Shown in pieces: positions 6,186 through 58,450 of a stretch of DNA of 64,000 nt; the first letter of the stretch is position 1; the number at the start of each line of letters is the position of its first letter. The notes below the pieces were generated by a model. It searched no databases. It worked only from the letters and a program-made list of their open reading frames with translations, and was not told the DNA's origin. A program made the translations under genes and the position numbers. This DNA is from Xiphophorus maculatus (Eukaryota; Chordata; Actinopteri; Cyprinodontiformes; Poeciliidae), in the NCBI RefSeq assembly GCF_002775205.1, contig NC_036443.1:16778373-16842372 (forward strand), in the 5' to 3' direction.

Positions 6186-9100
6186 ATGGCGAGCGTTTCC
6201 CCGTCACCTTTGATCAAGGTAAGTAAAAGTCTCTGGGGCTAAACTTCCAACAATCCAAGTCATTCTCTTAAACTTCAATCAGTTTTAATGTTTTATTAAA
6301 CACACATAGTCAATCTTGAACAGAAGCCAGTTTATGTTTTATTAAAAAAAGTTAGTTTTTTTTTTCTGCACTATTCTACTGTTGTTTCCAATATCGTGTG
6401 TATGTTCGTAGCAAGAAACCAGTCCTTCAGCCATAATGCATGGGAGGGAGGTCAACCTTCCTCCAACTGTACATCACCCTCCCTCAAATCAACCTCCTTT
6501 GGTCAGTCTCCACACTCAGGAGGACCTGTGGCATCTACCTGGAAGACTGAGTGAGACCTATTTTTGACCATCTTAAATGAAATTAATACATGTATTCATT
6601 TCCCATAAACAGTTTCACTCCACCTGTTAAAGTCAGTGTTTTCTGATTAGGAATAAATCCATCTCTGTGGGATAAGGAGGATGTTGCCCACTGGCTCCAC
6701 TGGGCGCAGAAGGAGTACTCGTTACGCCGACCAGAAAAGGGACATTTTGAGATGAATGGCAGGGCCCTTTGCCTCTTGACAAAAGAAGACTTTAGACGCC
6801 GCTGTCCGAGCTCAGGTACAATTTAATCTCTTTTTTTGTTATATGTAAAAAATATATATTTCTTTTAATAATCTATGGTGGTTTTCCTCAAGGTGATGTT
6901 CTTTATGAGATCCTTCAATGTGTAAAGCAACAAAGGAGGAGTGTTGTTTGCCAGTCCCCTAATGTTTCTGCTCTGGCGGCGAGTGGACACATTCAGGCTC
7001 CGGTCAGCAGCCAGATACCACCTCACTCTGTCCAAGAGCCACAGTCTCCCATTGTCAGCCCAGGTCAGAACATGGACTTCTAGTCTCTTTTTGTTTTAGC
7101 CACACTACAAATGTCTTTCGATCTTTTTTTTACTAAGTGTATTGCACTTAGTAAGTAACATTTAGTAACATTTGCAAATCAAAACCTGCGTAGTGACATG
7201 AAAAATTTTGTACCCTTCTTTAGACTTTTTCACAATTTTTTACCTTGCAACCACAAACATTCAGTGTATTTCATCTGGGCTTTAAGTGATGGATAAACAC
7301 AACGTAGTGCAGAATTGTCAAACTCAAATAGTTACATATCCAAAACACTATGTTGCAATCATTAAGAAAACAACGCTAACACACCATCTTTACTTTGAAA
7401 CATGGAGGTAGCACAATAATGCCAGGCGCTTCTTTTTGGCAGGAACACAGAAGTTGATTTGAGCTGATGCAAACATGTATGAAGATAAACACAGAACCAT
7501 GTGGGGACAAATCCTACTAAAGGCTGCAAAAAAAAAAATAGATTAGGGTGGTCACATTTAGTAAGGACAACAACCGTAAACATAAAGCAAGACATCCAAG
7601 GTAATGGGTTTGAATGACCAAGTAAAAGCTCAGACATATGTTCAACTGGCGAGGCCATTGTTGTTTACAGATGCTCGTCATCCAATATTAGTTGGAACTA
7701 TTTTGTCCCTTCCACTGAATAGACAAGAATTTTAGCTGGATGTGCAAAGCTGGGAGAGACATTATATTCACTAAAAAGGGTAGTGAATACAAATGCACAT
7801 GACACTTATTAGATACTTATTTGTAAAAAAAAAAAAAAAAAAAGAGTTGAAATGCCATGTTTCACCTTTCTTTTCCTCCAAAAATATGCATTATTTTACA
7901 TAAGTTTAATATCCAATAAAATCCTTTTTTGGGTCATAGCATGGTGAAATGTGAAAAGGCTTGATGCTTATGCAAAGTTTTCCACAGCATTGTAAAGCTA
8001 AATTTGTTCTCCTTATCAGGAATAATGTGTTCAGCTTGGAATTTCTTCAGTTGCATTTTGGCAAGCGCAGACAAGAAAAACTAAATCCAAATTACACCAC
8101 ATAAAAAAAAAGTGTCTTAAGGAGCACTGGGGTGGCATTTTCCAAACAATAATTTTAGAATTAAGGAGATCCAGCTGTATGATCACACCATACTAAAGTC
8201 AGATCAAAATCCGGAAAAGAAACTTAATAGAAACTAATGCAACATGTATAAAAAAAAGAATGCTATGAAGCATTTGCAGAAAGTTGTGGAACCAAGTACA
8301 TATTCTTGTAGAAAGAAAAACAGTATAGAGAAACAAGTACTATAAATTCAGTGTGCTCAAATTCAATATTTGTTTTTGGTTTGGTGCACATCAAATCAGA
8401 CTTGTTTATTCTAGAGAGTGTGTTGGCTAAGAGACTTTCTGATCAACATGTCTTAACACACTGAGGCTACGTTCATGCTCTTTCTTGCTGCATTTCTGAA
8501 GAGTCAAATCAAATTGCCTTATCTCTGCAACTTACCCAGCAATGACCATCACGAGTATTAAGAACCCCTTTTGACTTCCATTTAATGCTTTGTCCTTCGG
8601 CAAGTTATTGACGCAGGTGTTGCAAAATGCCTCCAAATAATGTTAAATGTTACTGTTTTTAATCGTAGTGTAGCCGTGAATTTATTGATTCGTTACAACT
8701 CTTTTGACCATTTTGTTCAAAAAGAAGTGTGAACTCAAATACCAGTAACTTATGAGCTGCCTAATTCATAAAGCTGAACATGAGTGCAGTTGAGCCACAT
8801 GCATTCCTGTTCTTTGACCCAACCACAACAGGGTGATTTCCATTCTAGGAAGACGGATGTGTGCTAATGGGAGGTAGCTGCATGGATTGTGGTATAATCT
8901 CACAACTCCATCGTCTTCCTTTTTGTTTTGGCTTTATTCGATGCCTTACAGAGCCCCATGTAAACTGATGAGAAAATATATTTTTACATTAAACTTTAAA
9001 TTGATGTTTGATAACTCCTGTTTATGCAAAATTTTGAAGTTGTTGCAAGACATTGGTTTTACTTTCTGTTTAGCTTTTCACATTTCCTCATATTTCACTC

Positions 9101-10426
9101 TGACAGTTTTCCTTGCAGTCACTGCGGCAGCGCCTGCAGCTGTTGTAGCTACTGTGAGCAATCAGCCTGAGCCCATTTCTCCTCTCAGAGAGCGTCCGCC
9201 TGTTTTTTACCCTTACTCTGCTCCACTCACTCATAACAGTGAGTATTAAAAAAAACAACTATTCCAGAAATACTTGAATTCTCTGTCCTGCTCTATTGAC
9301 CAAGATGGTTTATTTGTTTTATCTCTTTACTTTGCCTCTCTCATAGTTGGTTCTGCAGCTGTGTCTGCTTTACCTCCAAACCAAATTCAATCGTTTCCTC
9401 TAAAAGAAAGCGTGATACAGGAGCCTCTCAACCTATCCAGCCGAGAGAAGCCAAGGAGCCCACTGCACAAAGCCAATGGACGCATACCAGGTACTGTCAA
9501 CTTGGTTTGAAGAGTTGAACAATGATCTTAAGCTGTTTTTGTGGCCTCCAAACTTCTTGGATCTCAATCTATCATTCATACGTAGGCCATGGCGAATAAT
9601 CAAGTCTGATCCATGCAGGTTTCACCTTTGAACTTGCAATATTTTTGTATCAGATACCACCTCATACATTCAGGGATCCAGTTAAGCCTATGGCCTAAAT
9701 ATATATCTTTTGTGTTCTGGGGATATCTACAATGGGTGAAAGAAGCTTAAACAGACATAATTTGTGTTTGGCCAGAGTGCAGACTGCTGTGGGACTACGT
9801 GTATCAGTTGCTGTGTGACGATCGTTACCAAGACTACATTCGGTGGGAAGATCCCGACACACATGTATTCAGGGTGGTTGACCCCAATGGACTGGCACGC
9901 CTCTGGGGAAACCACAAGGTGAGTCAAGAGATCTTCACCTCATGAGGAATTTGAACAGATTAAGGAAAATCAGGGCACACAGAACTGTCATGTCAAGCAG
10001 TACAGACTTTCTTAGTGGCGTCTTTACTCCATTGACAGAACCGAGACAACATGACCTATGAGAAAATGTCTCGGGCTCTGCGGCACTACTACAAGCTTAA
10101 CATCATCCAAAAGGAACGAGGACAAAAACTCCTGTTCAGGTCTCTGGTGATTTAGCTTTTTTCACCATTATGCTATTTTCTCTTCTCAAAAACCTAGCAA
10201 TATCATGCTTACTGTTTTCCCATTGATTCTCCTCAGGTTTCTGAAACTCCCCCTTGACATCAAGAAACACCAAATTGACACATCTGGGTCCCCTGAACAT
10301 ACACCACCTCAGGATGCGGACTTTGCAGACAGCAGTCCTTTACAGGATCTCAGTGACGACCACTTTGAGGTTTCGCCTGACCGAGCTTCTCCACAGCCTC
10401 CCCCGACTGGTGCTCCAGTGGGATAG
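6186..10426 (+). CDS. etv7: etv7 (TEL2-type ETS transcription factor), nine exons, 401 aa
   Basis: The exons are 6186-6218, 6412-6550, 6651-6815, 6893-7063, 9119-9238, 9347-9490, 9776-9918, 10039-10139 and 10237-10426. All are GT-AG and sum to 1206 nt with an open frame. The N-terminal pointed (PNT/SAM) domain is at about residues 55-125 ([20 protein letters not shown], then [16 protein letters not shown]). It is the self-associating domain of the TEL subfamily. The ETS DNA-binding domain is at about 260-343 ([51 protein letters not shown]) and carries both DNA-contacting Arg residues in recognition helix 3. The linker carries EPLNLSSRE, like the conserved NLSHRE patch of ETV6. I chose etv7 over etv6 because of QKLLFRFLK after the ETS domain and because pnpla1 lies next door as in human 6p21. 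The factor is nuclear and mainly a repressor binding GGAA. A long intron 4 (2.05 kb) contains a Tc1 fossil. Exon 1 encodes only 11 residues, so an alternative start remains possible. Confidence 0.92.
7121..7156. repeat. Short hairpin, 10-bp perfect arms
   Basis: TTACTAAGTG, a 5-nt loop (TATTG), then CACTTAGTAA, at about 7131-7155. It lies just before the Tc1 fossil in etv7 intron 4. Confidence 0.7.
7180..7994 (+). mobile_element. Tc1/mariner fossil in etv7 intron 4 (sense orientation)
   Basis: The DNA follows the 3' half of a common vertebrate Tc1-type transposon. CACAATTTTTTACCTTGCAA sits near the start. Transposase-derived stretches follow (ACATGGAGGTAGCACAATAATG, TGATGCAAACATGTATGAAG, and GGATGTGCAAAGCTGGGAGA near 7740). 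The region ends with the terminal-type AATATCCAATAAAATCC...TGTGAAAAGGCTTGATGCTTATGCAAAG. It is heavily mutated with no open frame, so it is old. A run of 19 A lies inside at 7825-7843. Confidence 0.7.
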
Positions 10427-10904
10427 AGAAGAATAATATACAATTTAAATATTCAGGCAGAACAAATACATGTATATTTATTCATTTTCAAAACCGAAAC
10501 TGTTTTGAAAATGATCCATGCTTGTACAGATTGACTTGAATATTCTAGATGTTTTCTGAGGTTGCGTTATGTGCTGTTCATCATTTTACATGTGAATGAA
10601 CACTAACATTCAGGTAAAAAGAAATATGGAAAAAAATATCTTGATTCATCCATAAAATCATTGTAGCACATATGGATTTGTTAAACACAATCACAATATG
10701 ATTTCTGGGTTTATTTTCACAAACCATTCCAGTCTGGTATATAAGTAATAGCTGAAGCAGGGGCTAACTGTGATCAAACAAAATTTCTGCTGGTTCTGTT
10801 GTTTTAATATTTTTTTTTTATAATGAAGAATTAGTTTTTGTGAGAGTTTTGGATGGTTGCTTTGCTTATGGAAATAAATGTTTTATATGACAGTCAAAAT
10901 TTCT
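10427..10904 (+). other. etv7: etv7 3' UTR with hairpin
   Basis: The sequence after the TAG stop is AT-rich and contains a likely poly(A) signal (GGAAATAAATG near 10871). A perfect 13-bp inverted repeat (TCATTTTCAAAAC / GTTTTGAAAATGA, loop 7 nt) lies at 10482-10514, so the mRNA would carry a stem-loop about 55 nt after the stop. Confidence 0.6.
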
Positions 10905-11622
10905 ATTGCTGTTCATAAAAGTATTCACAACACTCGAACTGCTGCCGCCATGTTTTACAATAAAGTTGGAAACTATTAGCTTTCCACCACATATAACATT
11001 TTGAATGTATCCCAAAAAGTAAAGTTTAGTTGGTCATCTGACAGAAGCCTGATGTTTCACTTGTATATTATGGGAAGCTTTAAATATAACTTCCCATGGC
11101 TTTCTGGAAACAACAAAGGTTGGCTTCCAAAACTATTAGAGCTCTCAATCTCTGTAGCTTCCCCAGATCCACTATGGGACTTCTATTTGATTCTCTGAGT
11201 GGAGTTCACCTAGCTCCAATCAGAGAATGAAGAATGTCCATTCTTCCTGTCAAGAAGGGACATTTCTTGACAGGTTTGCAGTTCAGCCAAACTTTCTACT
11301 TTTTATATTTTCAAAGCTTAGAATAATGTTTTCTAAGCTACGGCTTTATGTAACTTTTCCACAACTTTATTTATGACCTGTCAAATGTTCTCAAACAAAC
11401 TCTTGATGCTTTCATAGACCTGGGTTTCAAAATTAAATTAAACACACGTACTGTTTCATAATGAGGTGACTTCTGAATGTAGCAGGTTGCACATGATTTT
11501 ATGCAGAGATAACAGAATAAAAGGTGTGCATGCCACACTTTCGATTTTTATTCATACCCTTTGCTTTTATCCTTTACAAATTGAAAACATTTCTTGGGGT
11601 ATGAATACTTTTAGAGGGCACC
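10905..11622 (-). mobile_element. Tc1/mariner fossil downstream of etv7 (antisense)
   Basis: Both ends resemble terminal repeats: CATAAAAGTATTCACAAC at the left and GGGGTATGAATACTTTTAGA at the right, in inverted relation. Between them are antisense remnants of Tc1 transposase DNA (CTGCCGCCATGTTTTAC; TTTTCCACAACTTTATTTAT; GAGGTGACTTCTGAATG). No open frame of useful length remains. An internal set of overlapping small hairpins lies at 11230-11275, including 11-bp arms CCTGTCAAGAA / TTCTTGACAGG. Confidence 0.7.
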
Positions 11623-12289
11623 TTATCATACAGCATCTTTTGCTAAAATAAAAATAACAAAATCTGTCTTTGCAGATGGGAAAGAGATCTCCCTTTACAC
11701 TCTGTTGTTTAGGAGTGTGCCAAACTTGTACCTGCAGGGGATGCTGTGGAAGTGCTTTGGTTAAAGCTGTTACCTGACTGCTTGCTTTCTCTCTCTCTTT
11801 TGGTTTATGTGTGTTTTGTGAAGTTGCGCTAATGGTCTTTAAATCCCGTCAAAGCAAAGAAAAAAGCTGTTTGAATTTGGTTTGAAAAAATTAGGAAATT
11901 AAGGAAAATCTAAATGAAATAAATACCACAGGCATTACATGTATTTTTGGGTGTGTTTTGCAGAAATAAACTATTGTAGATATCTTTTAAATTCTCTGGT
12001 GTATATCAGTCATAAGCCTATATTTTCTATGTAACAACATAATAAACTTAAGAACTGAAAGTGCCTTCTGACTTAAACAAGAAGGCCTTGAAATCACATG
12101 GCCATGACCAATACGATGTGTCCAATCAGGATGTATTTAAAAACTCTGCCTGACTAGCCCTCAAACACTTTTGACAGAATGCTTCATAAATGCCTGTTCT
12201 AACTTGGTATTTTTCATTTGCTGTTGACTCTCTAATGTTGATTAGATTAATGCTGATAAATAATTATTAGGTTGTTGACACTTTTCAAG
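11623..12289. other. etv7-pnpla1 intergenic interval
   Basis: AT-rich sequence of about 670 bp before the pnpla1 ATG. A TTTTGCAGATGGGAAAG phrase near 11673 looks like a splice acceptor and could mark an untranslated pnpla1 exon, but nothing else supports it. No repeat or gene is recognised. Confidence 0.4.
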
Positions 12290-15200
12290 ATGCCCCATAG
12301 TATCTCCAGTTCTCACTTTCGTGAGGTTCCTTATGATATTTCCTTCTCTGGGTCTGGATTCCTGGCTACCTATCAGCTCGGGGTTGTTCTGTGCTTCCTG
12401 AAGTATACACCCTGGATCCTGCAATCGGCTCCCCACATCCTTGGTGCATCTGCCGGATCTGTGGTAGCAGCTGCAGTTGTCTGTGAAATAAACCCAGGTA
12501 AGTGAACTTGTTGATTGTTCTGAATTTACTGTGCTATTTGCGTCTATGACTTTAACCTCAGTGTTCTTTCCTGTCACAGCTGTCATTCGGGATGAGATCA
12601 TCCTTTTTGTCAAACAGGTGATGGCTGCCCCACTTGGACCACTGACCCCTTCCGTCAATGTTTTCAAGTGGTTGGAAAGTGTTTTGCACAAGCACCTTCC
12701 TTCGGATGCACACCATTTTGCAAATGGTCGCCTTGGTGTTGCTGTGACACGACTGTCAGATGGGAAGCACCTAATCATGTCAGAATTTCAGTCCAAAGAA
12801 GATGTAGTGAAAGTAAGTTTGTGCTTGTGCAAAATATAATTTTTTTTCTCAAATAATAATATATTATAAACATTAATAATAATAGTGGAACACTGCATTC
12901 TAGTATTTAATGGTTTATTGCGGAAACCATTAAATAGATTGCATTACAGTGCATATATTGCAATCTGTCTTTATAACATGTCTATGTAATGTGTCTCCTT
13001 ATACACCGTATAAGGAGACACATAAGCTAACTACCAACATACCCTCATGTTTTAACTGTCTGATATTCAATCACACTTTAAAAGTGATTTTTATGACATC
13101 AAATGTTTCTTTTATCAGCTAATTCAGAATTGCCAAAATTATTTCTATTTGCTAGCAGTTTAAAAAGGTGAGATTCTTTTTTTTTCTTTTAGAAAAACTT
13201 GTTATTCTTTTCAAAGTCAGAACTTTGTTTTTCCTCTGGCAACAAAATAGTTAGGCTTGTTCATGTCTGAATGTCTGATGCCTGACAGTGTTGATCTTTT
13301 TGAACCTGCCTTTGTTGTAGGTTGGCACCATCACAAATGATGATGTAAAACTGTGCACAGTTTTCCACTGTGAACAGTTTCACAAAATCAAAGTTTTTGA
13401 GCTTAATATCAAGTTATATTGTTATTCTCTCATCAAAATAGCACCTGGAGTATTGCTTTAATTCTTTCATGCATGGTTGAGTACGAATCTCCTGAGAATG
13501 GCTGTAAACGGCATAATGGAAAAGTGTTCTTGTGATGATGTCTTAAGAGACTCAAATTTCTTTTAAGTTATGTATGTTATATATAGTACACACCATTTTT
13601 ATAACTACTGAATGTATCGTAGTTACTTGATTGTGCAATAAAACAAGATACATAACTTTGTCCCTTTAAAGCACAAAATTGATGACATTTATATCCGTGC
13701 TTTGTAATAGTTACTTGTTGTGTGTTGTCTCTAGGCTCTCCTCTGTAGCTGTTTTGTCCCTGGATATTGTGGCTTTCTGCCTCCAGCCTTCAAAGGAGTG
13801 GTGAGCATTTCAGAAGAACATTGCCAACTAATTCCAGGAGTTTGCTAAGTCACAAGGTTTTTATGTTTCAACAGCACTATCTTGATGGTGGCTTGAGTGG
13901 ATTCCAGCCCTTTCTCTCTGAGCCATCCAGCCACACACTAACTGTATGCCCATTCTCTGGAGAAGCTGATATATGTCCAGCTGATCCTCCTTCTATGATG
14001 GACCTGGTAGCTCCTGGAACTTTTCTAAAGTTCAACATGGCTAACACCTTCAGAATCATCAATGGTCTTTACCCTGTGACTTTAGAGGTAAGATTCTGTA
14101 TTGGACTTTTTCATTTTTAGAAAAAAGTTTTATTTTTTGCATTGCTAATGTGTTATACAGTAGTCTTATTGAATGACATTCAGAGAGTTCAGTAGTTAGA
14201 AATCTTACTTGTCTCTGTTTTATTCTAATGAATTGCCAACAACATTTTTCAATTACCCCACTGTAGCAAACAATGCTGGGCAATAATCACATTATCCTAA
14301 CATCCTAACACAGCTGAAAAAAAATGTTTTATTTCCACAAAATCCACTATTTACACATAATTAAAATACTTATACATTTCATTACATTTTCTAAGACTTA
14401 GGAAGATCTAATTAGGGACTATTTTTTCTTATAAGTTATTATGTCGAAATAGTACCTATGTCTTTCAACTTAGTAACTTGGCGTAACTGCATTATTGACA
14501 AGGTATTACACTATTAATTTAATATAAAACACAAAATGGCCAAAAGTATTACAATACTTAGCAGTATTTGCATTACTGACCATCATTACAAAATTAGTTT
14601 TGAGACCCCACTCTCTGCTCATTTAACAAGACTAAGCTACACACACATTTTCACTTCAGGTTAAGCAGGTGAACTTTCCACAATGTCAGCATATATTTGT
14701 GTCGAGCTAAATTCCCTTGATTCAAAACAGTTCAAAACCCCTTATGTATCTAAGCCTAGTAACTATGTTATATAAACATTCATTGTTTTTAAAAGAGAGA
14801 TTTAACTTGGTTTTGGTCTTTGAAAACATATGCAACTACTGACACATGGATTTCATATTGCCCTATAGTTGCACTGTTTGTTTACCCTTGTAGGCTGCAG
14901 AGCAAGCCTTCAATTTTGGCTACAAAGATGCCATCAACTTCCTTCAGCGCAATGGTGAGTCAAGTTAGAAATTAAATGCTTTAAGTTTACAAAGCATTTA
15001 ATTTCTGTATTGATGTATTTATTACACTGATGTATTTATTTTCTTTTTTAGATGTTGCTCTTGCTAAGATAGGGCATAGTGTATCCCACGGGTCCTCAAA
15101 TGGTAACTCCACCAATCCAAAGACATCCAAAGTAGAGGAGCAGAAGATGAAAGGAGGGGAACAAACCGACCTGAAAACATTTTTTAAAGAACACAGATCC

Positions 15201-16797
15201 ATGCAAATGTTCAGCTCCACCGTGCAAGAACCCAGTGAAGATCCTCTTCACCATTTTTACTTAATGAAGAATGGTAAGGTTCTCACTAAGCACAGACAAT
15301 CATCTTTAGCAGCTAATTGATTAATGTTAAAATTTACTGAATTGTTTAGCCAAACAAGAGTTATCTGTAAACCATAGGGTGGTAATCACAATCAGAACAT
15401 CTCTAAGAAAACATGCATTCTCAAAGTCAAAGCAATGAGTCATTCTGTTGACATCTGACATTACTAACCATAGCTTCATGAAGGCAGCTTTAGAGTACTG
15501 AGAGACATGGCTTTCAGTTCAAAGAAATAATGAAACAATGCAACAATGGATTTTTTTCAAATTATTAAGCTGCATTTGGAGTGGCATTTGTCTTTAAAAT
15601 TGAGATCAGTATACTGATTTTTTCCAATAACTGTGTTCTTTTATCTTTCAGTTCTGATGGGGAATGTGACAACTTACCTGAGTATGTTTGGGTTACCAGT
15701 GAGGATCTTCTCTCATCTGCTTCTACCTCTCGTGGTGTCATTCTATGCTGTGCTCCAAAGGAGACAAGGGTAATTAATACACTTAAGGCAACACAAAATG
15801 TTTTGTTTTTTATCAAAACTGGTCTGATGTGAAAGTAGAAATTACCCTTTGTTGAACAAGGAATTGTGATAAATGGTGATCAACCGTATGTTTTGGGGAG
15901 CGTTCAGTTTCATAAGCCACCACCAGGGCTAATTAATGACAGAGCTGATAAATAAAAATATACATTAAAGGAACCCGTCAGGCTAAAAGATCCTGATGCA
16001 TAATCACATCATGCATGGATTTTTGGGTAAATATTCTATGGACTCAGGAGACAAAAGTGGAACATTTTGAACGGTGTGCATGCATACTTTGGCATATAAC
16101 GAACGCATTCACTTAGTGATCTATAAGTAGATCACCAACTGAACATAGATCACCAAGTGAATGAATTCGTTCTATGCCAAAGGATCTATCTATGGTGATG
16201 CACGCAGACCTTTTAAAAAGGTGTGCGTGCATCACCATAGATAGATAGGACATAAATCACCAAGTGAACATAGATCAATGACACAGGGATTAATGTCTTT
16301 AAGCCTTTATATTTGTATATTACAAGCTTAATCATGCTGTCTTTGTCTGGAAAAATGATGAATGTGACTCTAAAGAGGAAACATTTGTTTTTACAGCCAG
16401 ATATACAGTATATGTTAACACAATTTAATCATAAATATGTATTTTTTTTTACTTAGACTGAAGATGCTGCTTAAAGACATCCCTGAGTTTCTTGTTTGGA
16501 ATTGGTATTTCATAGGACATTGTGGGCTTTTCTTCCTGAACATTTTCATCTGTAGCCTCAAGAAACTAATAAAAGACCGGTAAGATGTTCTTCACCTCGA
16601 CCTGGAAATGTTGTTACATGTTATTATATACATATGGAGATATTGTTTTTCCCATGAACACAAGCTTTCCATTTAATTTTAGCAACTCAATTCTGACTTG
16701 ATTTGACTGAAATGAACTGACTTTGTGTTTTAGGTTAACACGGATCATCTTGCTGCTGCAATGGCTAAGGGTTTACACACAGCACAAAGACATGTGA
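12290..16797 (+). CDS. pnpla1: pnpla1-like patatin phospholipase, nine exons, 435 aa
   Basis: The exons are 12290-12497, 12580-12812, 13735-13800, 13875-14087, 14894-14954, 15052-15273, 15652-15769, 16457-16579 and 16734-16797. All are GT-AG, 1308 nt in total, ending in TGA. The patatin domain spans about residues 14-180: the oxyanion loop SFSGSGFLATYQLG (about 18), the nucleophile elbow GASAGS (GxSxG, about 53) and the catalytic Asp in YLDGG (about 172). The Ser-Asp dyad is intact. ALLCSCFVPGYCGFLPPAFKGV is typical of the PNPLA1-5 group. The C-terminal third has hydrophobic stretches (IFSHLLLPLVVSFYAVL; FIGHCGLFFLNIFICSL), suggesting association with membranes or lipid droplets, as in the PNPLA2/3 group. 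PNPLA1 makes omega-O-acylceramide for the skin barrier. That role is not shown for this fish protein. The name rests on the etv7 neighbour. The C-terminus differs from human PNPLA1, so PNPLA3/5-like is the alternative. Confidence 0.85.
12904..12936. repeat. Perfect hairpin in pnpla1 intron 2 (13-bp arms)
   Basis: TATTTAATGGTTT, a 7-nt loop, then AAACCATTAAATA. The arms are exact complements. Confidence 0.85.
12989..13023. repeat. Perfect hairpin in pnpla1 intron 2 (15-bp arms)
   Basis: ATGTGTCTCCTTATA, a 5-nt loop (CACCG), then TATAAGGAGACACAT. It lies 52 bp after the hairpin at 12904 and is unrelated to it in sequence. Confidence 0.9.
13347..13364. repeat. 18-bp perfect palindrome in pnpla1 intron 2
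   Basis: AAAACTGTGCACAGTTTT is self-complementary with no loop. CACTGTGAACAGTTTCAC follows at once. Confidence 0.8.
14967..15006. repeat. Perfect hairpin just inside pnpla1 intron 5 (16-bp arms)
   Basis: AGAAATTAAATGCTTT, an 8-nt loop, then AAAGCATTTAATTTCT. It starts 13 bases after the exon 5 donor site, and the intron is only 97 bp, so the hairpin occupies much of it and could hold donor and acceptor close together. Confidence 0.9.
16087..16249. repeat. Double fold-back structure in pnpla1 intron 7
   Basis: Two hairpins stand side by side. The first pairs 16087-16122 with 16147-16182 (CTTTGGCATATAACGAACGC against its near complement ending CTATGCCAAAG, with several mismatches). The second pairs 16186-16214 (CTATCTATGGTGATGCACGC then AGACCTTTT) with 16215-16244, 29 bp with one mismatch and almost no loop. 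TAGATCACCAAGTGAA-type phrases are reused in both and again just right of 16255. It may be a small fold-back element or serial template switching. Confidence 0.85.
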
Positions 16798-19708: not shown

Positions 19709-19743
19709 TTCCTCTTACTTCCTACACTCGGAAGTAAGAGGAA
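19709..19743. repeat. Perfect hairpin (14-bp arms)
   Basis: TTCCTCTTACTTCC, a 7-nt loop, then GGAAGTAAGAGGAA. Confidence 0.9.
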
Positions 19744-20017: not shown

Positions 20018-20039
20018 AAAGTTTAAACGTTTAAACTTT
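20018..20039. repeat. 22-bp perfect palindrome
   Basis: AAAGTTTAAACGTTTAAACT ending TT is self-complementary with no loop and carries two GTTTAAAC octamers. Confidence 0.85.
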
Positions 20040-22022
20040 TTGCCTGTTTGAAGTGCCACTTGAAAGCCAAAGTCAAGTTTCTTGGTTTTGCATACAGCTT
20101 TGGCCAATGAAGAGGATTTTGAAAATAAACCAAAACGCACATGTATCCACGCCCCCACACACGCCCCGACACACGTGCACACACGCCCCTCTCCCCCCCC
20201 ACAATAATAATGAACTATAACAAATTAAAAGCATATAAAAGGGTCATATTGCCCTTGTAGATAGTAGGAGCAGAGTGAAAGTGATGATGCAATGATGACA
20301 ACAAACAAGCACAACTACTGTGAGGACAACAGGAGGATCTGACATCGAGTGACTAAACGAGAAGCCCTCACAATGGAGATTTTGATTACTGGATGCAGCA
20401 TAATTAAACATTAAATAATCACTAAATTAAATTAAATAAATGTGTAAATGAGCAGATGAGGAACAGGTGTAAGAAGACCAGGAAACTGAAGCACTGAGTA
20501 AAAGTAACACGAGTAATCTGAAACGCAAGAAAAATGAGACACTCAAAGCTCAACAGATCATGGTGACTGTAAAATCAATTTAAAAATGTGGAAACAAAGA
20601 AACAAAAATCTCCTAAAATGTGCGCCAGGGCATCACAGTGGCGCTAAGTATTAGAAGCCAATTTGACTAAATAAGTCTTAAGTTGTGACATAAAAAGCAC
20701 CAGATCATCAGTTTAGCATAAATTATGGGGAAGTTTTTTCCACATCCTGGAAGCAGCACAGGCAAAAACAACGACCATCCAGTTGTTTATAACTTGACCA
20801 TGGTAAGGTGAATTAATTGGAAGACCTCTCATATGATAAAGAAGAATGAAAATTTCTGAGACTGGGGTGAATATTACTTACATACTGTAACTAATAAAGA
20901 CTAATAACTATTTATTCAAGTCTATTTGTTTAAGAGACCATGCTCCTGTCTGTGAAACAACTACAAATTTCTAGAATTCAGCTGAAACTTGCACCATCAG
21001 CTGATTTAATTATGAATGAAGGGAAATACTTGTGTGAGTGTTTGATATTGAATCTAAATGAGAACAAAAAGAAAAAAAAAACATGGTAATTTATCAGTGC
21101 TTTGATAAATATTGTAGTAGTTCTCCCAATCACAATAGTAATATTTTTTGTAACTCTGCTCTTTGCTTTCCTTCTAACCTCAGCTTTTTTGTGCCGTTCT
21201 AACTTATCTGTAATGTCCCTCACTCCTTGTCCATTATCTCGAAATCGTTGTGGAACTTTCCGTCTTGACGTCTCGTTAATGATGAAGCACTCTCATGCAT
21301 CTTTAAGCACTTGACAGGAATCTTCCACAGTGAAGTCTCAGTTTGTGCAACACAGCAACTCTGAGAGGTATTCTTGTTTCTTGTATTATTTGTCTCCCAA
21401 CTGGACTGGGACTTGTTGCATGTTGCATTCTTTAGGAACTCTATTAGGTCTTCTTACATCTCGATGCAATGAGGCATGGGATCCCCCGTCTTCCTGCATT
21501 TGAATCATTTAGAGAGAGTCTGCGCTTGAAGCTGCTGTAAAGAGACAAGGAAGTTCTGGATGGAAAATGCAGCCTTTTGTGGTATTTTGTCAAAGACATA
21601 TCACAGACATATTAGGAAACAAGGAACTAAATTCAGTTTGAGAAAATATAAAGACTTGACGAAAGTCCATTGTGGGGACCAATTCCATGAAAAAATACAG
21701 TTTTTGTTTTGTATTTGCTTGTTTGACACTGATATAGTTCAGAGCTTTATGCAAATTTTAATATCACACTAGGAAAAAGACTGGAAAAATCCTAAAGGAG
21801 AATGTCCTTCAGTCATTTTGGGACCATAAGCTTGAATAAACCAGTAAGTTCACTTTAGCATGGCTCCAAAAAATAAAAATAAAATAAAAAATCTCGAATA
21901 AAGGTTTTTGGAGTGGTCATAGTCTTGGTCTTAAACATTTATTTTTGTAGACATAAGTGTGGCTGAATTAAAACAATTCCATATAGAAGAGTGAAGCAAA
22001 ACTTCTCCACAGAACTCAAATG

Positions 22023-22640: not shown

Positions 22641-23962
22641 CAAAAAAAGATAAAAAGAAGATGAAATCTGTGAAGGGGGAAATACTTATAACAGTTAAAT
22701 TTCTAATAAAACTGTAATATAATGTTCAGCATTGGTCCAGTAACCCCACTGACTTTAAAACAACTGAGCTTTGAGTGAAACACATAATTGTGTATACCTA
22801 CTAGTTTTAGGGTCACAGTTCTTCTTTGCAAGGTAAGATGCACGACTGGACAAAAATAACCTAAACATTTCATTTCAGCTGGTGCTAAAACAGCCACTGA
22901 AAAATTCTCATATTTTCTATTGATACTATTTTACACCTACGTAATACGGCAGAGTTTTACTTTTTTTCAAAAATCTGTCCATTGCGATATGCTGCCCTCA
23001 TGTGAAGACGTTATCAGCCGAGACATAAAATAAAATCTTCCATCTCTCAAACCCAATTGCATCTACAGTAGAGAGTTTTTCAACTCTCAACCCCGTTACC
23101 GGGGCTGCTCTTAAGGTATCATTATGTCCAACAGTCCATTATGCAGACTAGGTGGCATGTGACCTCACAGCTCCTGTTTCTTCATAAGCATCAATCACCC
23201 CTCCTTTCCCTCGTTTCATTTACATCTCTGTTTCTCACAATGACCTTGAGGGCTCCATAGTGTCAGTACAGTGTAAAATGTAAAGTCAAACTCTACAACT
23301 GAAGGTTTGATATGTTCTCTGCAGAGTTTACAGCCGACAGTGACTAAAATAACTTGGAAATATTCTAATGAGGAGGTGATTAAAAACACTTACTTGTTCT
23401 ACTTCAGCTTGAAATTTTGGAAACATGTTCACAGTCATTGTTCATAGTCTTGCATAACAGTACAACAGTTGTAATGTGACAACACAATTCAGCTCTAAAG
23501 TTGCATGTGAGTATGTTTTAATCTGCATTTCAAATGAGCAATTTCTTCAAGAAGTTGTTAAGATTGTGTTATTCATTGTGTCGCTCCCTGCTGCTTACTG
23601 AGTTTTTTTTTTCTGCTGGGGCAGGGACAGTATCATGCTTGATGTCAAAAAAACATCACTTTTTTATTTATTCAATATGAAAATGTAGTTTTATGATTAT
23701 CTTGAGCAACTTGATCACATTTAACAATATTAGCAAAGTTTTGTTAAAATGCATTGAAAATATGACTAAAGAATTATTACAGTTGTGAGATAATTCACAA
23801 AGAATGAAAGCAACTGCATAAATACAATAATCAAAATCACATAGCGGTATTAAACTCTATGTATTATCAAATTTGACTACTGTGCTTAACTGCTGTCATG
23901 AAAAAAATAGTCAGCAGCTTGAAACCCACAATAGAACTATTCGAGTCAAACAAAGTTGATCA

Positions 23963-24200
23963 AACTAAATATTTAATTAGCAAGCTAAATATTTAGCTAT
24001 GAGCTCAGTTTTTCATTTGAAGCTAAATATTCAGTTAGCAAGCTAGTTAGCCTCACACTAAATATCTTGCTCCAAAAGAAATATTTAGTTAAATATTTAG
24101 TTCAAAGCCAAACATTTACCAACTACATATTTAGTTCAGAGCTAAATATTCTGTTTGTAGCTTCCAACTAAATGGCTTTCTAGATAAATATTTAGTTTAA
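23963..24200. repeat. Degenerate array of the palindrome CTAAATATTTAG
   Basis: The self-complementary core CTAAATATTTAG, whole or slightly changed, occurs at least eight times, joined by GTT, AGC and AAGC words (for example GCAAGCTAAATATTTAGCTA). Spacing is irregular, about 20-30 bp. It is neither a plain microsatellite nor a clean minisatellite. Confidence 0.75.
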
Positions 24201-24660
24201 ATCTCTAGGTGACCTCTATCGGTGTTGAGGGACTAACAATAGAGTGAAAGTGGAGACATATTCTTACCTGAAAGGGCTCACAAGTTGGAATTCATGAATA
24301 TGAACTATTTTTCTAGTAAACATGATTTAATTGGCTGTATAAAAAAATTGGAATACATGACTTTGAAATCTGTCTGAAATCTCATTTTGGAATTTGATTC
24401 TTCTCTGCAAGATGTTTTTTTTCTTGGATTACCAAATACTTATGCCGAGAACAATTTTACAATATACATTGAGTTTTTTCAGCACAGAGCCAAATAGAGC
24501 CATTCCTCGACCTTTTAGTTAATGACCTGTATAAGTCTATCGTATTTCTGTATTTTGTTACTTTAATGTTTATTTGGCACATTTTCCTTTAGACAGTTCA
24601 ATCACCCAATAGGTTCTTTGACTTATCAAAGTAGGAAGAATCACAGGAATGACCTTCTAG

Positions 24661-24717
24661 AGATGCTTTTGGAAAATGTTAGTCTAGAATCTAGACTAAC
24701 ATTTTCCAAAAGCATCT
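24661..24717. repeat. Perfect 57-bp hairpin (28-bp arms, 1-nt loop)
   Basis: AGATGCTTTTGGAAAATGTT plus AGTCTAGA is followed by a single A and then the exact reverse complement of all 28 bases. No flanking duplication is seen. With no mismatch it must be recent, under repair by gene conversion, or an assembly artefact. Confidence 0.95.
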
Positions 24718-27446: not shown

Positions 27447-29171
27447 TCAGATACCATTGACCTTATTAACTGAAGGATTGCTACCCTGTTTGGTACTTTC
27501 TTCTGCCTTTATGGCTTGCTCAAGAGCCTCTGTCATGGGAACCTTGTCCTCTGCTTCTGTCTCTCTGTGGTAGAAGTAGTTGAAGTTGGAGACAATGACA
27601 GGAACAGGCAAAGCAATTGTCAACACACCAGCTATTGCACACAGTGTGCCCACCACTTTCCCCCCAAGTGTGATAGGACACATGTCTCCATAACCTACAG
27701 TTGTCATGGTCACCACAGCCCACCAGAACCCATCAGGAATGCTGACAAACTGTGTGTCAGGGTCATCTACTTCAGCAAAGTAGATGGCACTGGAGAAAAG
27801 AATAACTCCAATGAAAAGAAAGAAGATGAGCAAACCAAGCTCCCGCATGCTTGCTTTTAGAGTTTGTCCCAAGATCTGCAGTCCCTTTGAGTGACGTGAC
27901 AGCTTGAAAATACGGAAGACTCTGACCAAGCGGATGATACGCAAAATGGCCAAAGACATGTTCTGTCCTGAGCTCTCCTGAGGGGTTGTGGCCAGTTCTG
28001 TCATCAAAGTTACAAAATAGGGGATAATGGATATAATGTCGATCATGTTCATGAGGTTGTGGAAAAACTCACTTTTGCTCGGGCACACCACAAACCGAAC
28101 AATCAACTCAAAGGCAAACCAAGCTATGCAGACAGTTTCAACAAAAAAGAAAGGATCGGATAATGTTTTGAGCTTTGCACCAGCTAAAGAGCCAGAGTGG
28201 GATACTTTGGACTGGTTGACATGTTGAACCACTCTTGGAAAAAAGAGTTCAGTGTCATCTCTGAACTCTGGCAGTGTCTCCATGCAGAATATGATGATAG
28301 ATATGACAATGACCAAGACAGAAACTAGCGCTACACCCCGTGCTGCATTGGAGCTCTCTGGGTATTCAAACAGGAGCCAAAATTGCCTATGGATTTCATT
28401 TTTAGGGAGAGGTATGTCAACATCTTTTATGAATCCTTCATCTTCTCTGAACTGTTCCATAGCTTCATGTCCGAGCTCATAGAATACAATTTCATCAGCA
28501 AACACATCAAGGGGAACGTTAGCTGGTCTTCTAATTTTGCCGCCAGACTGATAGTAATACAAGATCCCATCAAAACTTGGTCGATTCCGATCGAAGAAGT
28601 ATTCATTCCTCATTGGATCAAAGTACTCTGTCCTCTTAAAGGGGTCTCCAAGAAGTGTTTCAGGGAACTGGTCCAGTGTTTTGAGCTGTGTCTCAAAGCG
28701 AAGACCAGCTATGTTGATGATGACTTTCTGGTCTCCATCATCCAACCCTCTTTTATCTGCAAACAGATCCTCACAGCACTCCTTCGTGAGCCGACTGAAG
28801 ATTGTTTCACTTTCCTTCATGCCTTCACTGTTTAACAGCAGCTTCCAGTTGGAGATAATGCTGGCACAACTACTGCGACCCTTTCTGCTTGGTGATGGCA
28901 TCACTGGTGACTGAGGTACTTCCAGTCTCTGCGTTGGTGGAATGGGTGAAGAGGAGGTGGATTCCCAAATGTAGGAGGGCATTGGGCTGTAATGTGAAGG
29001 GGTGGAGGAGAGTTGATGGGGTCGTTGACGGTTATTGATGTCAGAGCTGTTTTGCTCTGGAGGAACATCCACTGTGAGAGCTGTTGTCTCATCAGCATAG
29101 GTGTCAATCTCATCCTCAAGGGTGCCATTAATGTCCTCCAGGCTCTCAAAGTCAACCAGGGCCACCTCCAT
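27447..29171 (-). CDS. kcna10: kcna10 (Kv1.8), voltage-gated potassium channel, single coding exon, 574 aa
   Basis: One open exon. The start [10 protein letters not shown] matches the MEVALVNFD of human KCNA10, and an in-frame TGA lies four codons before the ATG. The T1 tetramerisation domain is at about residues 148-240 ([15 protein letters not shown]). S1 starts at about 277, and S4 at about 405-428 carries the regular Arg/Lys ladder ([19 protein letters not shown]). The pore filter TVGYGD is at 491-496 and the S6 PVP hinge at 522-524. An NQS sequon at 319 sits in the S1-S2 loop. The N-terminus is longer than in human and is Ser/Pro-rich at about 50-100. The C-terminus KVNGI lacks the TDV PDZ ligand of kcna2. 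A 3' splice site (TCTTTTCTTTTATAG) puts the 5' boundary of this exon at 29355, so untranslated upstream exon(s) exist to the right. KCNA10 channels respond to cyclic nucleotides and act in inner-ear hair cells in other vertebrates. Confidence 0.96.
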
Positions 29172-29355
29172 GGATGGGGTTCAGCCAGTGCAATGCCTTA
29201 AAACTACCAGGATAAGAGAATCTCACACTTTGAGTAACAGAGGGATAACTCAGTTGTCAAAATATGTAGCAGCATCAGCCCACCAGAGTTGAGTCTTTAG
29301 GAAGACTCATAGGACAAACAGGAAGCCATTGCTGTTCTTAGCTTTCCTTCAACAC

Positions 29356-33581: not shown

Positions 33582-33701
33582 ACACTCAATAAAGGAGTGG
33601 TTCTGCAGTTGGGACCACAGACCACTTCTCAGTACCTATGCTGTCTGGCTGATGTTTTGGTCAGTTTTGAATGTTGGTGGTGCTTTCACACTCGTGGTAG
33701 C

Positions 33702-34738: not shown

Positions 34739-34996
34739 GCCTCATTTTGACTTGTTTTAAGGACATTACATTAAAGTTGGATCAGCGTGTAGTGTTATTT
34801 CACTTCAATTTTGTGTGTGGCTCCAAATCCAGGCCTCCATTGGTTAATAAATTTGATTTCCATTGATGATTTTTGTGTGATTTTGTTGTCAGCACATTCA
34901 ACTTTGTACAGAACAAAGTATTCAATGAGAATATTTCTTTCATTCAGATCTAGGATGTGTTATTTGAGTGTTCCCTTTATTTTTTTGAGCAGTGTA

Positions 34997-37291: not shown

Positions 37292-37327
37292 TGTGTGTTA
37301 ATCTCACTTTTGTGAGATTAACACACA
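37292..37327. repeat. Perfect hairpin (16-bp arms, 4-nt loop)
   Basis: TGTGTGTTAATCTCAC, TTTT, GTGAGATTAACACACA. The arm word GTGTTAATCTCAC is then repeated directly at about 37331-37343. Confidence 0.92.
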
Positions 37328-38916
37328 AAAGTGTTAATCTCACTCTCACCTCTGGACAACAACTTAGAAAAATAAAGAACACAACAAATCTCTGTATGCC
37401 ATATTCCCAGTTTCTGTGCATAAAGTTAAAAATAAATAAGTAGGAAATAGAGTTTAAATAATCCTGATTATTTTTCTAATACACATGGTATGCTCTGTTT
37501 AATTAATTTGAATCACTTCTGATATAGCATTGCATGATTTCTAGGTTACAAAAAGGGTTAGACAGAAACAAATGTGTACAATTTACATCAACTTTGACCA
37601 AAGCTATTTAAAAATTATAGGGCAAAATGCAATGTTGCATATCATTTATGCACACACTCACACTAAAGGGCAAGTTTAGTGTTTTTCTGGTGTTTCCTCA
37701 TTTCTCTCCAGAAACCTGAATGTGTTCTTAATTTAAAGTAAAAACATTAAGAAAAACTTGACATACTGCTTTAGTGGATGTTATGATTTTGAGATGGCTA
37801 ATTCCAGTCAATTGCTACAAAACTATACCAACATCTGAACATCTTCTATTGCAATGCCTTTCTTTAAAGAGTCAGTTTTTCATGTTGTAATTGCACAATT
37901 TCAACCTAGCTTAGATATCAATCCAATAAGATTTGTCATTACAACTTTCTGTCAGAGGAATCGGGGATCCTCTATGTTGTTTATGGACAGAGCAAAGGCA
38001 TTTTCCACTCCTGCATTTGAATTAATTGTTGCAGTTTTCCAAAAACCTTCTAAAAACCACTGGAATTGTCTTTGTTGTTCTCTCTGCAAGCTATAATCCA
38101 GTTATTTGTATTAATTCCTAAATTTGCTGTGTGTTGTGATCTCAAACTCCAGACATTTAATTTGGTTTTCAAACACCTAATAATCACAAATCTGTTTCAT
38201 GTGTCTCTGTGCCGGTCCTGTGATAGACTGGTACCCTGGGTGTACAGTGTCTCCTACTCAACGATTGTTGGGACACTAATGCAATGGTGTGTGTGGGACA
38301 GGGGGAGTCCCAAGTTGTAGGAGTGCTTTGGCTGGTTGGGCTGGTATTTTTGGATCAGAATTTTCGCCCTATTAAGCAGATTAATGCAGGATAGGCAGCT
38401 CAGTGCTATAAGCCGAGGAATCTCTTCCACTGGATCATCACAGATACCATTGAGCTGGTGAGCCAGGCAGTTCTGTACTCAGGGAAGAAAGAGATGAAAA
38501 GTAAATAAGCACCGATAGTATAACATGTTGTATTTTATGATTTCAAATGGAAAACTTCCTATTTTCTACTTGTATTTTGCTCTACTACATCTTTTTTTCC
38601 CAAGTGAGAGAAAAAAAAAACATGGCATTTTATACATTGATCACCTGCAGCAATAGCACCAGGCCCATATTGTTCTCCAAAGCTGAGCAGAATAATTAGT
38701 AATTGAACAAACAGCATTAGGTCCTGAGATGTGTCATGCTAGAATGTTAAAAAATGATCCCTTAAACACTGTTTAATTGGAGGATGTGACATCTGACTTC
38801 CCTCTAATGCTTTCAAACCAAATTAGATTAGAATATGGGACATCAGGGGTCAAATGTAACACCCCACACAACAAACATGTTGTGTAGTGCTAGGTGCCCA
38901 TCACCTGGCATTGAGT

Positions 38917-38952
38917 GCCAAGTGCTGGATCAGCACTTGGCTGATCCAGCAC
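38917..38952. repeat. Two overlapping perfect hairpins
   Basis: GCCAAGTGCTG/CAGCACTTGGC (loop 3 nt, 38917-38941) and GTGCTGGATCAG/CTGATCCAGCAC (loop 7 nt, 38922-38952) share bases and are mutually exclusive folds. Confidence 0.9.
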
Positions 38953-50862: not shown

Positions 50863-50893
50863 GGATGCTTTTGAACAATTATTCCAAAAGCAT
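50863..50893. repeat. Hairpin sharing arm ends with the 24661 hairpin
   Basis: GATGCTTTTG, an 11-nt loop, then CAAAAGCATC. The arms repeat the outer 10 bases of the arms of the 24661-24717 hairpin. Confidence 0.8.
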
Positions 50894-52310
50894 CAGTAAA
50901 CAACAATAAACAACTTTAACAAATTATAAGAACAAGATGAAAGTTTTGGTGCCCAAGTTTGAACTTGTTGTGGATTTTCCTTTCAACCAGACCAAATCAA
51001 AGACTCAAATACATAAACACGCCTTCAGCAGTTTATGGACATATGTCCCTTAGCAACTTGCAGGAAGACACATATCAATGATCTGATGGCTGACCCAATA
51101 GGTGTGTTCAAACACAACAACAATCCCACATGCATATTAATATTAGTTTGGGAATAGATAAAGTGGGCTAATAAGCTTCTGGAATTAGCTTAAAAATCAA
51201 TATGGGTGATTGATTCCAAGTCTCAAAACTACCTGAATGTCACATCGTGGCCACCATAAATTTCCCATGTCTAGTGTGTCCTGTCTGTGCTAACTGTGGA
51301 CCTTTGGAAAGCACTTCAGCACAGCCAATAAAAACAACATTTGATGCTCTACATGAAACACTTTTCTGAATTTCTAGTTCTACCAAATTAAGATTAATTC
51401 GAAGTAAGGCCCTAAATATTCAGACCTGACTTGAATGTGCTAGAGAATATGTGGAGGTAACTAAAGATGTGAGGCTTATTATCAAAATTAAGACAGAGGA
51501 AACATCCAAAACTCTGGTCAGCAGCTATGAAACCGAATTCTTATTGCCAAAAATATTTTTCAATTGATTAATAAGAAGCCTATTAACAATTTTCTGTAAG
51601 TAAAATGTAAATGACAATAGATTTTTTTTCCCTCAAAAGTTATATTGCTTTTATATTAATTTATTACCTTTGAATAAAAAAAAAGAGTAGAATAAGCACA
51701 AAAACAAAGCCAAGTAATTTAAGGAGTGCAGGTAAATGTGTGTAAAATATAACATATAGAAGTTTATGATTTATGAAATTTTCTAGTTAAAAATGTAACA
51801 TTATTGGACTCATAAAAAGAAACACAACAGTAACTTGTGTTTATATAGAAGTTTTTTTTTCTTTTTTTCTTTTACTGACATCATTTAGATCATTACATGT
51901 TCCAGTTTTACAATATTTTTAAAATAATGACACTGGAAGATTTTCCTGACTACCGTATTTATGTCCATCAGAAGTCCATGGGTAGCATTCCAACACATAA
52001 TTCTTCTGTAGGCAACAACATACAGTTTGTTTCAAGGGCTTTTCAACACAGTGGTGAAAGACAGCAGCTACACAGAAAATTGAGAAGAACCATAGGATTA
52101 GTTAGGCTTTATGAGTGTCACACAATTGGCTCAAGGTATAGAAAGTAGACAGAGTAAGACACAAAGTATTTAAGCAAGGCCTGTGTGTGTATCTTCAACA
52201 AACCTCATTCACTGCATTTGATTTAATGACATTCAACAAAAAGCAATATTTTGTGGTAGTACACATTTCATTTTTCACTTAAATTGTATTATATATTTAC
52301 TATATGTTCA

Positions 52311-52335
52311 TATATATATATATATATATATATAT
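52311..52335. repeat. (TA)n microsatellite
   Basis: About 12 TA units. Confidence 0.95.
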
Positions 52336-56008: not shown

Positions 56009-56043
56009 TCAGTTCAGACAACTCTTCTAGTTGTCTGAACTGA
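56009..56043. repeat. Perfect hairpin (15-bp arms, 5-nt loop) downstream of kcna2
   Basis: TCAGTTCAGACAACT, CTTCT, AGTTGTCTGAACTGA. It lies about 720 bp beyond the kcna2 stop and so could be in the 3' UTR. Confidence 0.92.
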
Positions 56044-56765: not shown

Positions 56766-58268
56766 TTATACATCTGTACGCATTTTAGTGATATTTACGA
56801 AATTAGTATTGACCAGAGTGCAGTTTCCTGTTTTTTTGCCCTCTGGTCGGAAGTCCTCAGTACTGTGGTTAACAGGCTCCTGGATCTCAACATAGTCAGA
56901 CTTACTGAGGGTGGATCCACTCCCACTTCGACCACTCTTCTTCAGATCATCAGCAGAACTGCCTTTAGGCACACTTGGGATATTCAGATACTGTGCTTGT
57001 TCTTCACCCTCTGTCTCTCTGTGGTAGAAATAGTTAAAATTTGATACAATGACAGGCACGGGCAAGGCAATAGTCAGCACACCAGCAATTGCACAGAGAG
57101 AGCCCACAATTTTTCCTCCAATAGTGGTCGGTACCATGTCTCCGTAGCCTACAGTGGTCATGGAAACCACTGCCCACCAAAATGCTTCAGGGATGCTGCT
57201 AAACTGTGAATGTGGCTCATCTGCTTCTGCAAAGTAGACAGCGCTAGAGAAGAGAATTACACCAATAAACAGGAAAAAGATTAGGAGGCCCAGCTCACGC
57301 ATACTGGCCTTCAGTGTCTGTCCTAAGATCTGGAGACCCTTAGAGTGACGTGAGAGTTTGAAGATGCGAAACACCCTTACTAGACGAATGACACGGAGTA
57401 TGGCCAAGGACATGGCCTGCTGGCCAGCCTGGCTATCCTCTGGCCTTTCCGCAAGCTCTGTGCCCAGGGTGATGAAGTATGGAATGATTGCCACAATATC
57501 TATGATGTTCATAATGTTACCAAAAAATCCAGCTTTGCTTGGACAGGCAAAAAATCGAACGAGGAACTCAAAAGAAAACCAGATGATACAGAGGGTCTCC
57601 ACAATGAAGAAAGGATCTGTAAAATATGTTGAGGGGTCATACGTAGAGGTGGAGTTGGACATGGAATGCAGTGGGTAATTGTACATCTCCTCATCTTCAT
57701 TTCGGAAAAGTGGCAGTGTTTCCAGGCAGAAGCTTACAATCGATATAAGAATCACCATGACGGAAATGATGGCAATGATTCGAGCTGGACCCGAGCTCTC
57801 TGGGTATTCAAACAGAAGCCACACTTGTCTCTGAAACTCATTTTCTGGCAGTGGTCTCTCCTCTTCCTTTATAAAACCTTCATCTTCTCTGAAAATTTCC
57901 ATAGCCTCCTCACCCAACTCATAAAATCGAATTTCCTCAGAAAATATGTCCAGAGTCACATTGACAGGCCGGCGAAGCCTCCCACCAGATTGGTAGTAAT
58001 ACAGGATAGCATCAAAACTTGGTCGATTACGGTCAAAGAAGTACTCATTCCGGAGGGGATCAAAATATCTCATCCTTTTCTTGGGATCACCCAGCAGCGT
58101 ATCTGGAAACTGAGACAGGGTCTTCAGCTGAGTCTCAAAGCGCAAGCCTGAAATGTTGATGACAACTCTCTCGCAACACTCATGGTCTGGCTCTGGGTCA
58201 TACTGGTCATGAGGCTGACCTGAATGCGTCGCTGCTTCATCTGCAGGGTCGCTGGTGGCAACCGTCAT
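56766..58268 (-). CDS. kcna2: kcna2 (Kv1.2), voltage-gated potassium channel, single coding exon, 500 aa
   Basis: The intact exon starts [13 protein letters not shown], as in human Kv1.2 (MTVATGDPADEAA). The T1 domain is at about residues 35-125 ([17 protein letters not shown]). S1 is at about 163-183, and an NST sequon at about 205 lies in the S1-S2 loop. S4 ([20 protein letters not shown]) is at about 290-309, filter TVGYGD at 372-377, the PVP hinge at 403-405, and the C-terminal PDZ ligand TDV. Val after the filter (GDMVP) is the Kv1.2-type TEA-site residue. The tail [10 protein letters not shown] keeps the conserved tyrosine region. A 3' splice site (TTTAGCTTTTTGCAG) at 58372 gives about 100 nt of 5' UTR in this exon; untranslated exons lie further right. 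It forms low-threshold delayed-rectifier channels in axons with other Kv1 subunits. Whether it is the a or b teleost duplicate cannot be told. Confidence 0.97.
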
Positions 58269-58413
58269 GGTGGAGGAAGATGGGGCCTGCAGCTTTCAGA
58301 CAGGATGGGGCCACAGTGGGCTGGATGTGAAAGTTCTTTGCACTTGTGGGATGGGGCACAGGCACCTCTGCCTGCAAAAAGCTAAAAGGACAGAAAGGGG
58401 AGAAAAGCTGCAA

Positions 58414-58450
58414 TATTAATGTAACCACTTGTTACATTAATAACAAGTGT
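58414..58450. repeat. Overlapping hairpins 42 bp upstream of the kcna2 exon acceptor
   Basis: TATTAATGTAAC/GTTACATTAATA (12-bp arms, loop 5 nt, 58414-58442) and CACTTGTTA/TAACAAGTG (9-bp arms, 58426-58449) share bases. On the minus strand they lie just before the polypyrimidine tract of the coding exon. Confidence 0.88.

Follow-up and report, generated by a model that had tools for sequence, protein, structure and literature searches.

A 64-kb window of the Xiphophorus maculatus genome (the whole stretch analysed, contig NC_036443.1, positions 16,778,373 to 16,842,372; G+C content 37%) contains an excess of short perfect hairpins with small loops, and this excess is well beyond chance. Most of these hairpins are probably the scars of separate local fold-back copying mutations, in which a single strand would have folded onto itself and been copied backwards.

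Excess of small-loop hairpins

Perfect inverted repeats with loops of at most 10 nt were counted after masking of simple repeats (408 bases). The window contained 16, 14, 11, 10, 7 and 4 of them with arms of at least 10, 11, 12, 13, 14 and 16 bp, respectively. For the same arm classes, the null means were 1.14, 0.31, 0.065, 0.015, 0.005 and 0 in first-order Markov sequences, 1.54, 0.45, 0.13, 0.055, 0.015 and 0 in local third-order sequences, and 1.46, 0.36, 0.095, 0.015, 0.005 and 0 in fifth-order sequences (200 runs each). A repeat run of the local third-order model (100 runs) gave 1.65, 0.53, 0.11, 0.07, 0.02 and 0, and dinucleotide shuffles in 1-kb blocks (300 runs each) gave 1.33, 0.36, 0.077, 0.020, 0.007 and 0 with masking and 1.26, 0.35, 0.077, 0.017, 0.003 and 0 without it. 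Ten arms of at least 13 bp were thus seen against 0.015–0.07 over all controls, and four of at least 16 bp against 0. One of the ten, at 34997, is a T/A-rich run edging a Tc1-like element and is not independent. Unmasked counts, which include (AT)n microsatellites, were 20, 17, 14, 13, 9 and 5.

A chance origin was ruled out by the Markov models of orders 1, 3 and 5 and by the dinucleotide shuffles, masked and unmasked. A microsatellite origin was also rejected, the excess remaining with simple repeats masked and (AT)n palindromes set aside.

An original prediction, made from the letters of the window, had listed hairpins at twelve loci, and a hairpin was present at 12 of the 12 coordinates. 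Its expectation of ~0.03 for arms of at least 13 bp was about right, and the dinucleotide-shuffle control that it had called for gave counts far below those observed (0.017–0.020 against 10 for these arms). Two details were corrected: perfect arms reach at most 28 bp (24661), and the hairpin placed at 16186 exists but spans 16184–16246, its perfect reading being that given in Table 1. The hairpins at 11246–11274 and 7130–7154 (the latter within the range given there) and imperfect ones such as 36822–36853 were absent from that list, and so were the (AT)n microsatellites.

When mismatches were allowed, 16 hairpins scored at least 12 (11 perfect, three with one mismatch and two with two), where 20 simulations gave 0.2 overall and 0.15 for imperfect ones. 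The imperfect hairpins were thus also above chance, as ongoing formation and decay would leave them. This bears on a library or assembly artefact that introduced fold-back copies into the consensus sequence. Sequencing is known to yield fold-back chimeras, but the hairpins are far smaller than the usual ones, and an excess of imperfect, apparently mutated hairpins is not expected of a recent artefact, so that we judge such an origin highly improbable.

Loops, arms and edges

Two low-complexity matches (34997 and 23965) were excluded from the flank, overlap, outer-end and clustering tests. The flank test used the 12 cleanest hairpins, the clustering test 13 (adding 16184), and the overlap and outer-end tests 18 hairpins with arms of at least 10 bp and loops of at most 20 nt.

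Among repeats whose arms were 11 bp or longer, 13 had loops of 0–10 nt against 0.5 expected (40 simulations), two had loops of 11–20 nt (0.48 expected), one of 21–50 nt (1.05 expected) and ten of 51–300 nt (8.9 expected). The census set with these arms and loops of at most 10 nt numbers 14 with the low-complexity rows; in the loop-class count, 23965 was displaced by a longer-loop repeat. One of the two hairpins with 11–20-nt loops is 16184, the loop of which is 1 nt if one mismatch is allowed. The loops of the 12 cleanest hairpins were 0, 1, 3, 4, 5, 5, 5, 7, 7, 7, 7 and 8 nt (median 5), with a median arm of 13.5 bp.

Past the arm ends of these 12 hairpins, 48 of 168 flanking pairs were complementary (0.286 against 0.267 expected), indicating that the arm ends were sharp. 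Since flank complementarity was at background, the arms do not represent what is left of larger repeats, and remnants of large ancient inverted repeats were excluded for the 12.

The hairpin at 14967 lies within a 97-nt apparent intron (14955–15051, read by eye). It makes up 40 nt of the intron and begins 12 nt past the donor; the rest of the intron contains a 13-nt direct repeat (15011–15040).

Other repeat types as internal controls

Four repeat types were compared at the same spacing (at most 10 nt), each with a separate null of 100 local third-order simulations. For lengths of at least 10, 11, 12 and 13 bp, inverted repeats numbered 16, 14, 11 and 10 (1.65, 0.53, 0.11 and 0.07 expected) and direct repeats 18, 9, 5 and 2 (1.83, 0.54, 0.13 and 0.02 expected; e.g. 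156–187, 15011–15040 and 20156–20189). Mirror repeats (3, 1, 0 and 0; 1.49, 0.45, 0.13 and 0.06 expected) and same-direction complementary repeats (2, 0, 0 and 0; 1.08, 0.31, 0.07 and 0.01 expected) were near their nulls. The direct and inverted excesses were equal at 10 bp, and the direct one was clearly lower from 12 bp (5 against 11).

An excess confined to inverted repeats was ruled out by the direct-repeat null run. The direct-repeat excess implies that same-direction copies are made too, by the same process or by a second one, and local copying in both directions plainly sums up the counts. Ordinary tandem duplication by slippage could be a separate source of the direct repeats.

Overlapping hairpins

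At 5 of the 18 hairpins (11246, 12904, 37292, 38922 and 58414), a second hairpin overlapped the first and extended beyond it (P ≤ 0.03 each), and in 400 null draws nothing equalled those at 37292 and 38922. No overlapping second hairpin was found by this criterion at the other 13. The overlapping alternative hairpins noted in the original prediction were thereby borne out. Read by eye, several fold orders fit the history of the three-copy structure at 37292, and no single order is claimed.

An imperfect ~98-nt hairpin (16086–16183) exactly adjoins the palindrome at 16184–16246, and the flanks resemble parts of both. The stretch 16086–16246 may be one compound element or a product of serial fold-back.

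Origin of the hairpins

In the proposed mechanism, the 3′ end of a strand at a stalled fork or at a resected break would fold onto its own strand, pair through a few bases and copy ~10–30 nt of that strand backwards. The copied strand would then unfold and be rejoined downstream, the copy forming the second arm and the stretch left between the point of folding and the arm forming the loop. Some ends would fold repeatedly ahead of rejoining, giving overlapping hairpins, and fresh hairpins would decay by point mutation. Because loops below ~10 nt predominate (median 5 nt for the 12 cleanest hairpins), fold-back of a single strand is preferred over a switch to the opposite strand. Stem-loop (“snap-back”) synthesis by polymerase theta (Pol theta) and fork template switching both fit, and the window does not separate them. 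A polymerase repairing a break can produce the same kind of scar as replication errors do, and fork template switching is not the sole form. The local template switching of the original prediction is thus kept as to backward copying, the simplest cause, but is narrowed to fold-back, widened to break repair and given direct copies as a companion.

Several observations weigh against this reading. We infer the fold-back step, the direction of change, the order of events and the derived state from the end products in one genome. Perfect hairpins exceed imperfect ones (11 against 5 at a score of at least 12), with detection dropping as mismatches are added; this surplus may reflect youth, loss, upkeep or a score that penalises mismatches. 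As the direct repeats indicate, local duplication of a general kind may account for some of the signal. The loop limit is not absolute, since loops of 101–200 nt occurred in five repeats whose arms were 12 bp or longer, against 0.95 expected (starting at 12682, 16293, 23963, 28520 and 55508, the third in the AT-rich array). The direct repeats and these longer loops slightly lower our confidence in fold-back. The remaining points, common arm ends and clustering, are taken up below.

The 101–200-nt loops would suit the longer reach of an opposite-strand switch at the replication fork (inter-strand template switching). Such switching leaves the same single inverted repeat, many great-ape events fit both forms (PMC7954356; papers are cited by PMC number and from excerpts), and the overlapping structures also agree with repeated switching. 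However, it offers no clear reason for spacings below ~10 nt, where the main excess sits, and we consider it unlikely to be the general source.

Fold-back by separate events also has to be set against outer arm ends in common. Hairpins 24661–24717 and 50864–50894 have 10 nt in common at their outer ends and 4702–4736 and 38922–38952 have 8 nt (GATGCTTTTG; GTGCTGGA), the sequences being otherwise different. These paired ends are possibly shared terminal sequence, and they count against independent origin because independent events would not yield them. Two such pairs among 18 hairpins were found in none of 1000 null draws (0.036 expected), and the longest outer match had P = 0.009; the sharing was noticed ahead of testing, and 4702 and 50864 are themselves weak hairpins. 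The original prediction had called the hairpins unrelated apart from one shared arm end; that sharing is confirmed, a second pair was found, and both matches lie at outer ends. In addition, 8 of 13 hairpins lay within 10 kb (P = 0.006; 0.012, 0.10 and 0.47 for 15, 5 and 2 kb, uncorrected for the four widths), which suggests unequal rates or some common origin.

The paired ends, together with the compound of two adjoining hairpins at 16086–16246, could be read as signs of several families of tiny or decayed inverted-repeat transposons resembling miniature inverted-repeat transposable elements, and teleost genomes are rich in small elements. Against this, two other sharing nulls were weak (longest common arm stretch, P = 0.047; number of stretches of at least 8 nt, P = 0.078), and loops of 0–8 nt leave no internal region. 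No flanking duplication of 3–10 nt was found at 17 of the 18 hairpins, the remaining one having a single 3-nt match, in agreement with the lack of target duplications predicted. Self-BLAST (E ≤ 1e-4) detected no second occurrence in the window of any hairpin with its flanks, although most arms are too short for this test to register. A transposon origin is accordingly rated very unlikely. A viral-contig scan with 23 nt of the 24661 arm gave no match.

Other features of the window

The positions of the hairpins and of the other features are given in Table 1. The potassium-channel frame at 27447–29180 is presumably kcna10. Rfam RF00485 (potassium channel RNA editing signal) was found in both channel genes on the minus strand (27585–27698 and 57039–57152; 106.7 and 101.8 bits). 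The transposase of the Tc1-like element is broken across two overlapping frames (33522–34043 and 34010–34738). Taken together, the element and the channel gene pair would indicate a bony-fish genome. The AT-rich repeat region 23961–24201 is built from a palindromic unit (CTAAATATTTAG). Beyond 12260–12502, the domain scan gave no match for 4 of 8 open stretches (12492–12836, 13749–14117, 14985–15317 and 60732–61127).

One hairpin within a short apparent intron and two less than 1 kb from the patatin-like phospholipase stretch might hint at hairpins under selection, as microRNA precursors or as processing or regulatory signals. But no Rfam family reached the gathering score at any hairpin, the window's two such matches being the editing signals elsewhere. 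Sub-threshold microRNA matches at 16086–16246 spanned several families, and one family matched both strands, as expected of a palindrome. Arms of mostly 11–16 bp are also short for microRNA precursors, and a functional origin seems scarcely credible.

Table 1. Hairpins and other features of the 64-kb window
Feature	Position	Strand	Arm (bp)	Loop (nt)	Remarks
Weak hairpin	4702–4736		10	15	
Hairpin	7130–7154		10	5	weak alone (null mean for arms of at least 10 bp, 1.1–1.7 per window)
Hairpin	10482–10514		13	7	
Hairpin	11246–11274		11	7	overlapping 8-bp hairpin 11229–11246 (P = 0.02)
Hairpin	12904–12936		13	7	overlapping 8-bp hairpin 12936–12966 (P = 0.028)
Hairpin	12989–13023		16	3	
Hairpin	14967–15006		16	8	within apparent intron
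Near-perfect 63-nt palindrome	16184–16246		31	1	one mismatch; alternative, perfect 23-bp arm with 17-nt loop
Hairpin	19709–19743		14	7	
Perfect 22-nt palindrome	20018–20039		11	0	
Hairpin	24661–24717		28	1	outer end in common with 50864
Imperfect palindrome	36822–36853		16	0	one mismatch
Three-copy structure (A-A′-A)	37292–37343		16; 13	4; 6	second, overlapping hairpin starts at 37312
Two overlapping hairpins	38917–38952		11; 13	3; 5	second, 38922–38952
Weak hairpin	50864–50894		10	11	
Hairpin	56009–56043		15	5	
Hairpin	58414–58449		12	5	first, 58414–58442; overlapping 9-bp hairpin 58426–58449 (P = 0.02)
Low-complexity match	23965				inside AT-rich tandem array; non-independent
Low-complexity match	34997				T/A run edging Tc1-like element; non-independent
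Methyltransferase-domain open stretch	3455–3682	minus			Methyltransf_11, 42.6 bits
Patatin-like phospholipase open stretch	12260–12502	plus			26.5 bits, slightly below Pfam cut-off (27.7)
Potassium-channel reading frame	27447–29180	minus			long, uninterrupted
Tc1-like element	~32673–34994		57		beside TA repeats; arms (in nt) include some flanking TA repeat
Potassium-channel reading frame	56766–58295	minus			long, uninterrupted; best match among solved structures, Kv1.2 (KCNA2)

Comparison with known systems

Under the four-point template switch model of Loytynoja and Goldman, as given in excerpts of PMC7954356 and PMC8794818, 4017 great-ape template switch events were described; in the gold-standard set the inverted length had a median of 12, and the majority of patterns gave single inverted repeats (PMC7954356). 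The window resembles these short-range switches in its perfect inverted repeats of about the same length, often single, and its hairpins show a local reverse-complement copy with sharp copy ends. In contrast, the ape events were called from aligned relatives, and here end products alone are read and loops are mainly at most ~10 nt.

Fold-back inversions at breaks in yeast are likewise short inverted duplications, most of ~5–34 bp, made by folding back (PMC11724301). The yeast case involves a 10-bp inverted microhomology that is imperfect and encloses a 41-nt loop (PMC11724301), whereas loops in the window are far smaller.

Stem-loop insertions by Pol theta offer further likenesses. In Drosophila, inverted templated insertions are favoured most by pairing sites of 1–3 bp that a 6-nt loop separates; in mammalian cells, such insertions of 3–30 bp are frequent; templated insertions hold direct or inverted copies of nearby sequence, and Pol theta, given time, uses alternative pairing configurations (excerpts of PMC11292364). 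Pol theta products in zebrafish were read by their authors as snap-back synthesis (PMC12040184). The loops of the 12 cleanest hairpins are similarly small (range 0–8 nt); over the window the main excess is at loops of at most 10 nt, and a lesser one is at 101–200 nt for arms of 12 bp or more. The loops, arm lengths, overlapping hairpins and parallel direct-repeat excess fit the account of these insertions. Unlike them, arms in the window reach 28 bp (31 bp with one mismatch), and the events are read from sequence alone.

A genome size of ~3 Gb was taken for an estimate of the great-ape rate. The great-ape events (PMC7954356) then come to ~0.08 in a stretch of 64 kb, where this window has 11 perfect hairpins with arms of 12 bp or more (one low-complexity); the ratio is only indicative because time spans and detection rules differ. 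That this fish lineage makes germ-line fold-back hairpins at a rate some two orders of magnitude above that of great apes, perhaps via early-embryo Pol theta break repair, is a speculation that we regard as doubtful. If so high a rate were true, a ~1-Gb genome (assumed size) would carry >100,000 young hairpins. If the density were general, perfect small-loop hairpins would provide an alignment-free, single-genome record of a mutation type that usually needs close relatives, and their loop sizes and overlaps would let one ask which polymerase is at work in the germ line and whether fish and mammals differ in this respect. The mutation class is already in print and its density may be new; this single 64-kb window presents it at a density that merits a genome-wide count.

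No fish-specific survey was among the full-text literature matches listed, which is no proof of absence. In a survey of perfect inverted repeats (IRs) over 118,019 genomes, the metazoan mean was 4.55 per kb (excerpts of PMC13155455). With the same limits, the window had 9.95 IR bp per kb, 7.7 after masking and 7.2 when arms of 10% G+C or more were counted (14 of 19), although overlap merging may differ from the survey's. Eukaryotic perfect IRs in the survey were mostly AT-rich with zero spacer (PMC13155455), whereas 12 of 15 window repeats had 3–8-nt spacers after masking. Some excess is in itself expected; what is less usual, as seen in one window, is the density and the 3–8-nt spacer preference.

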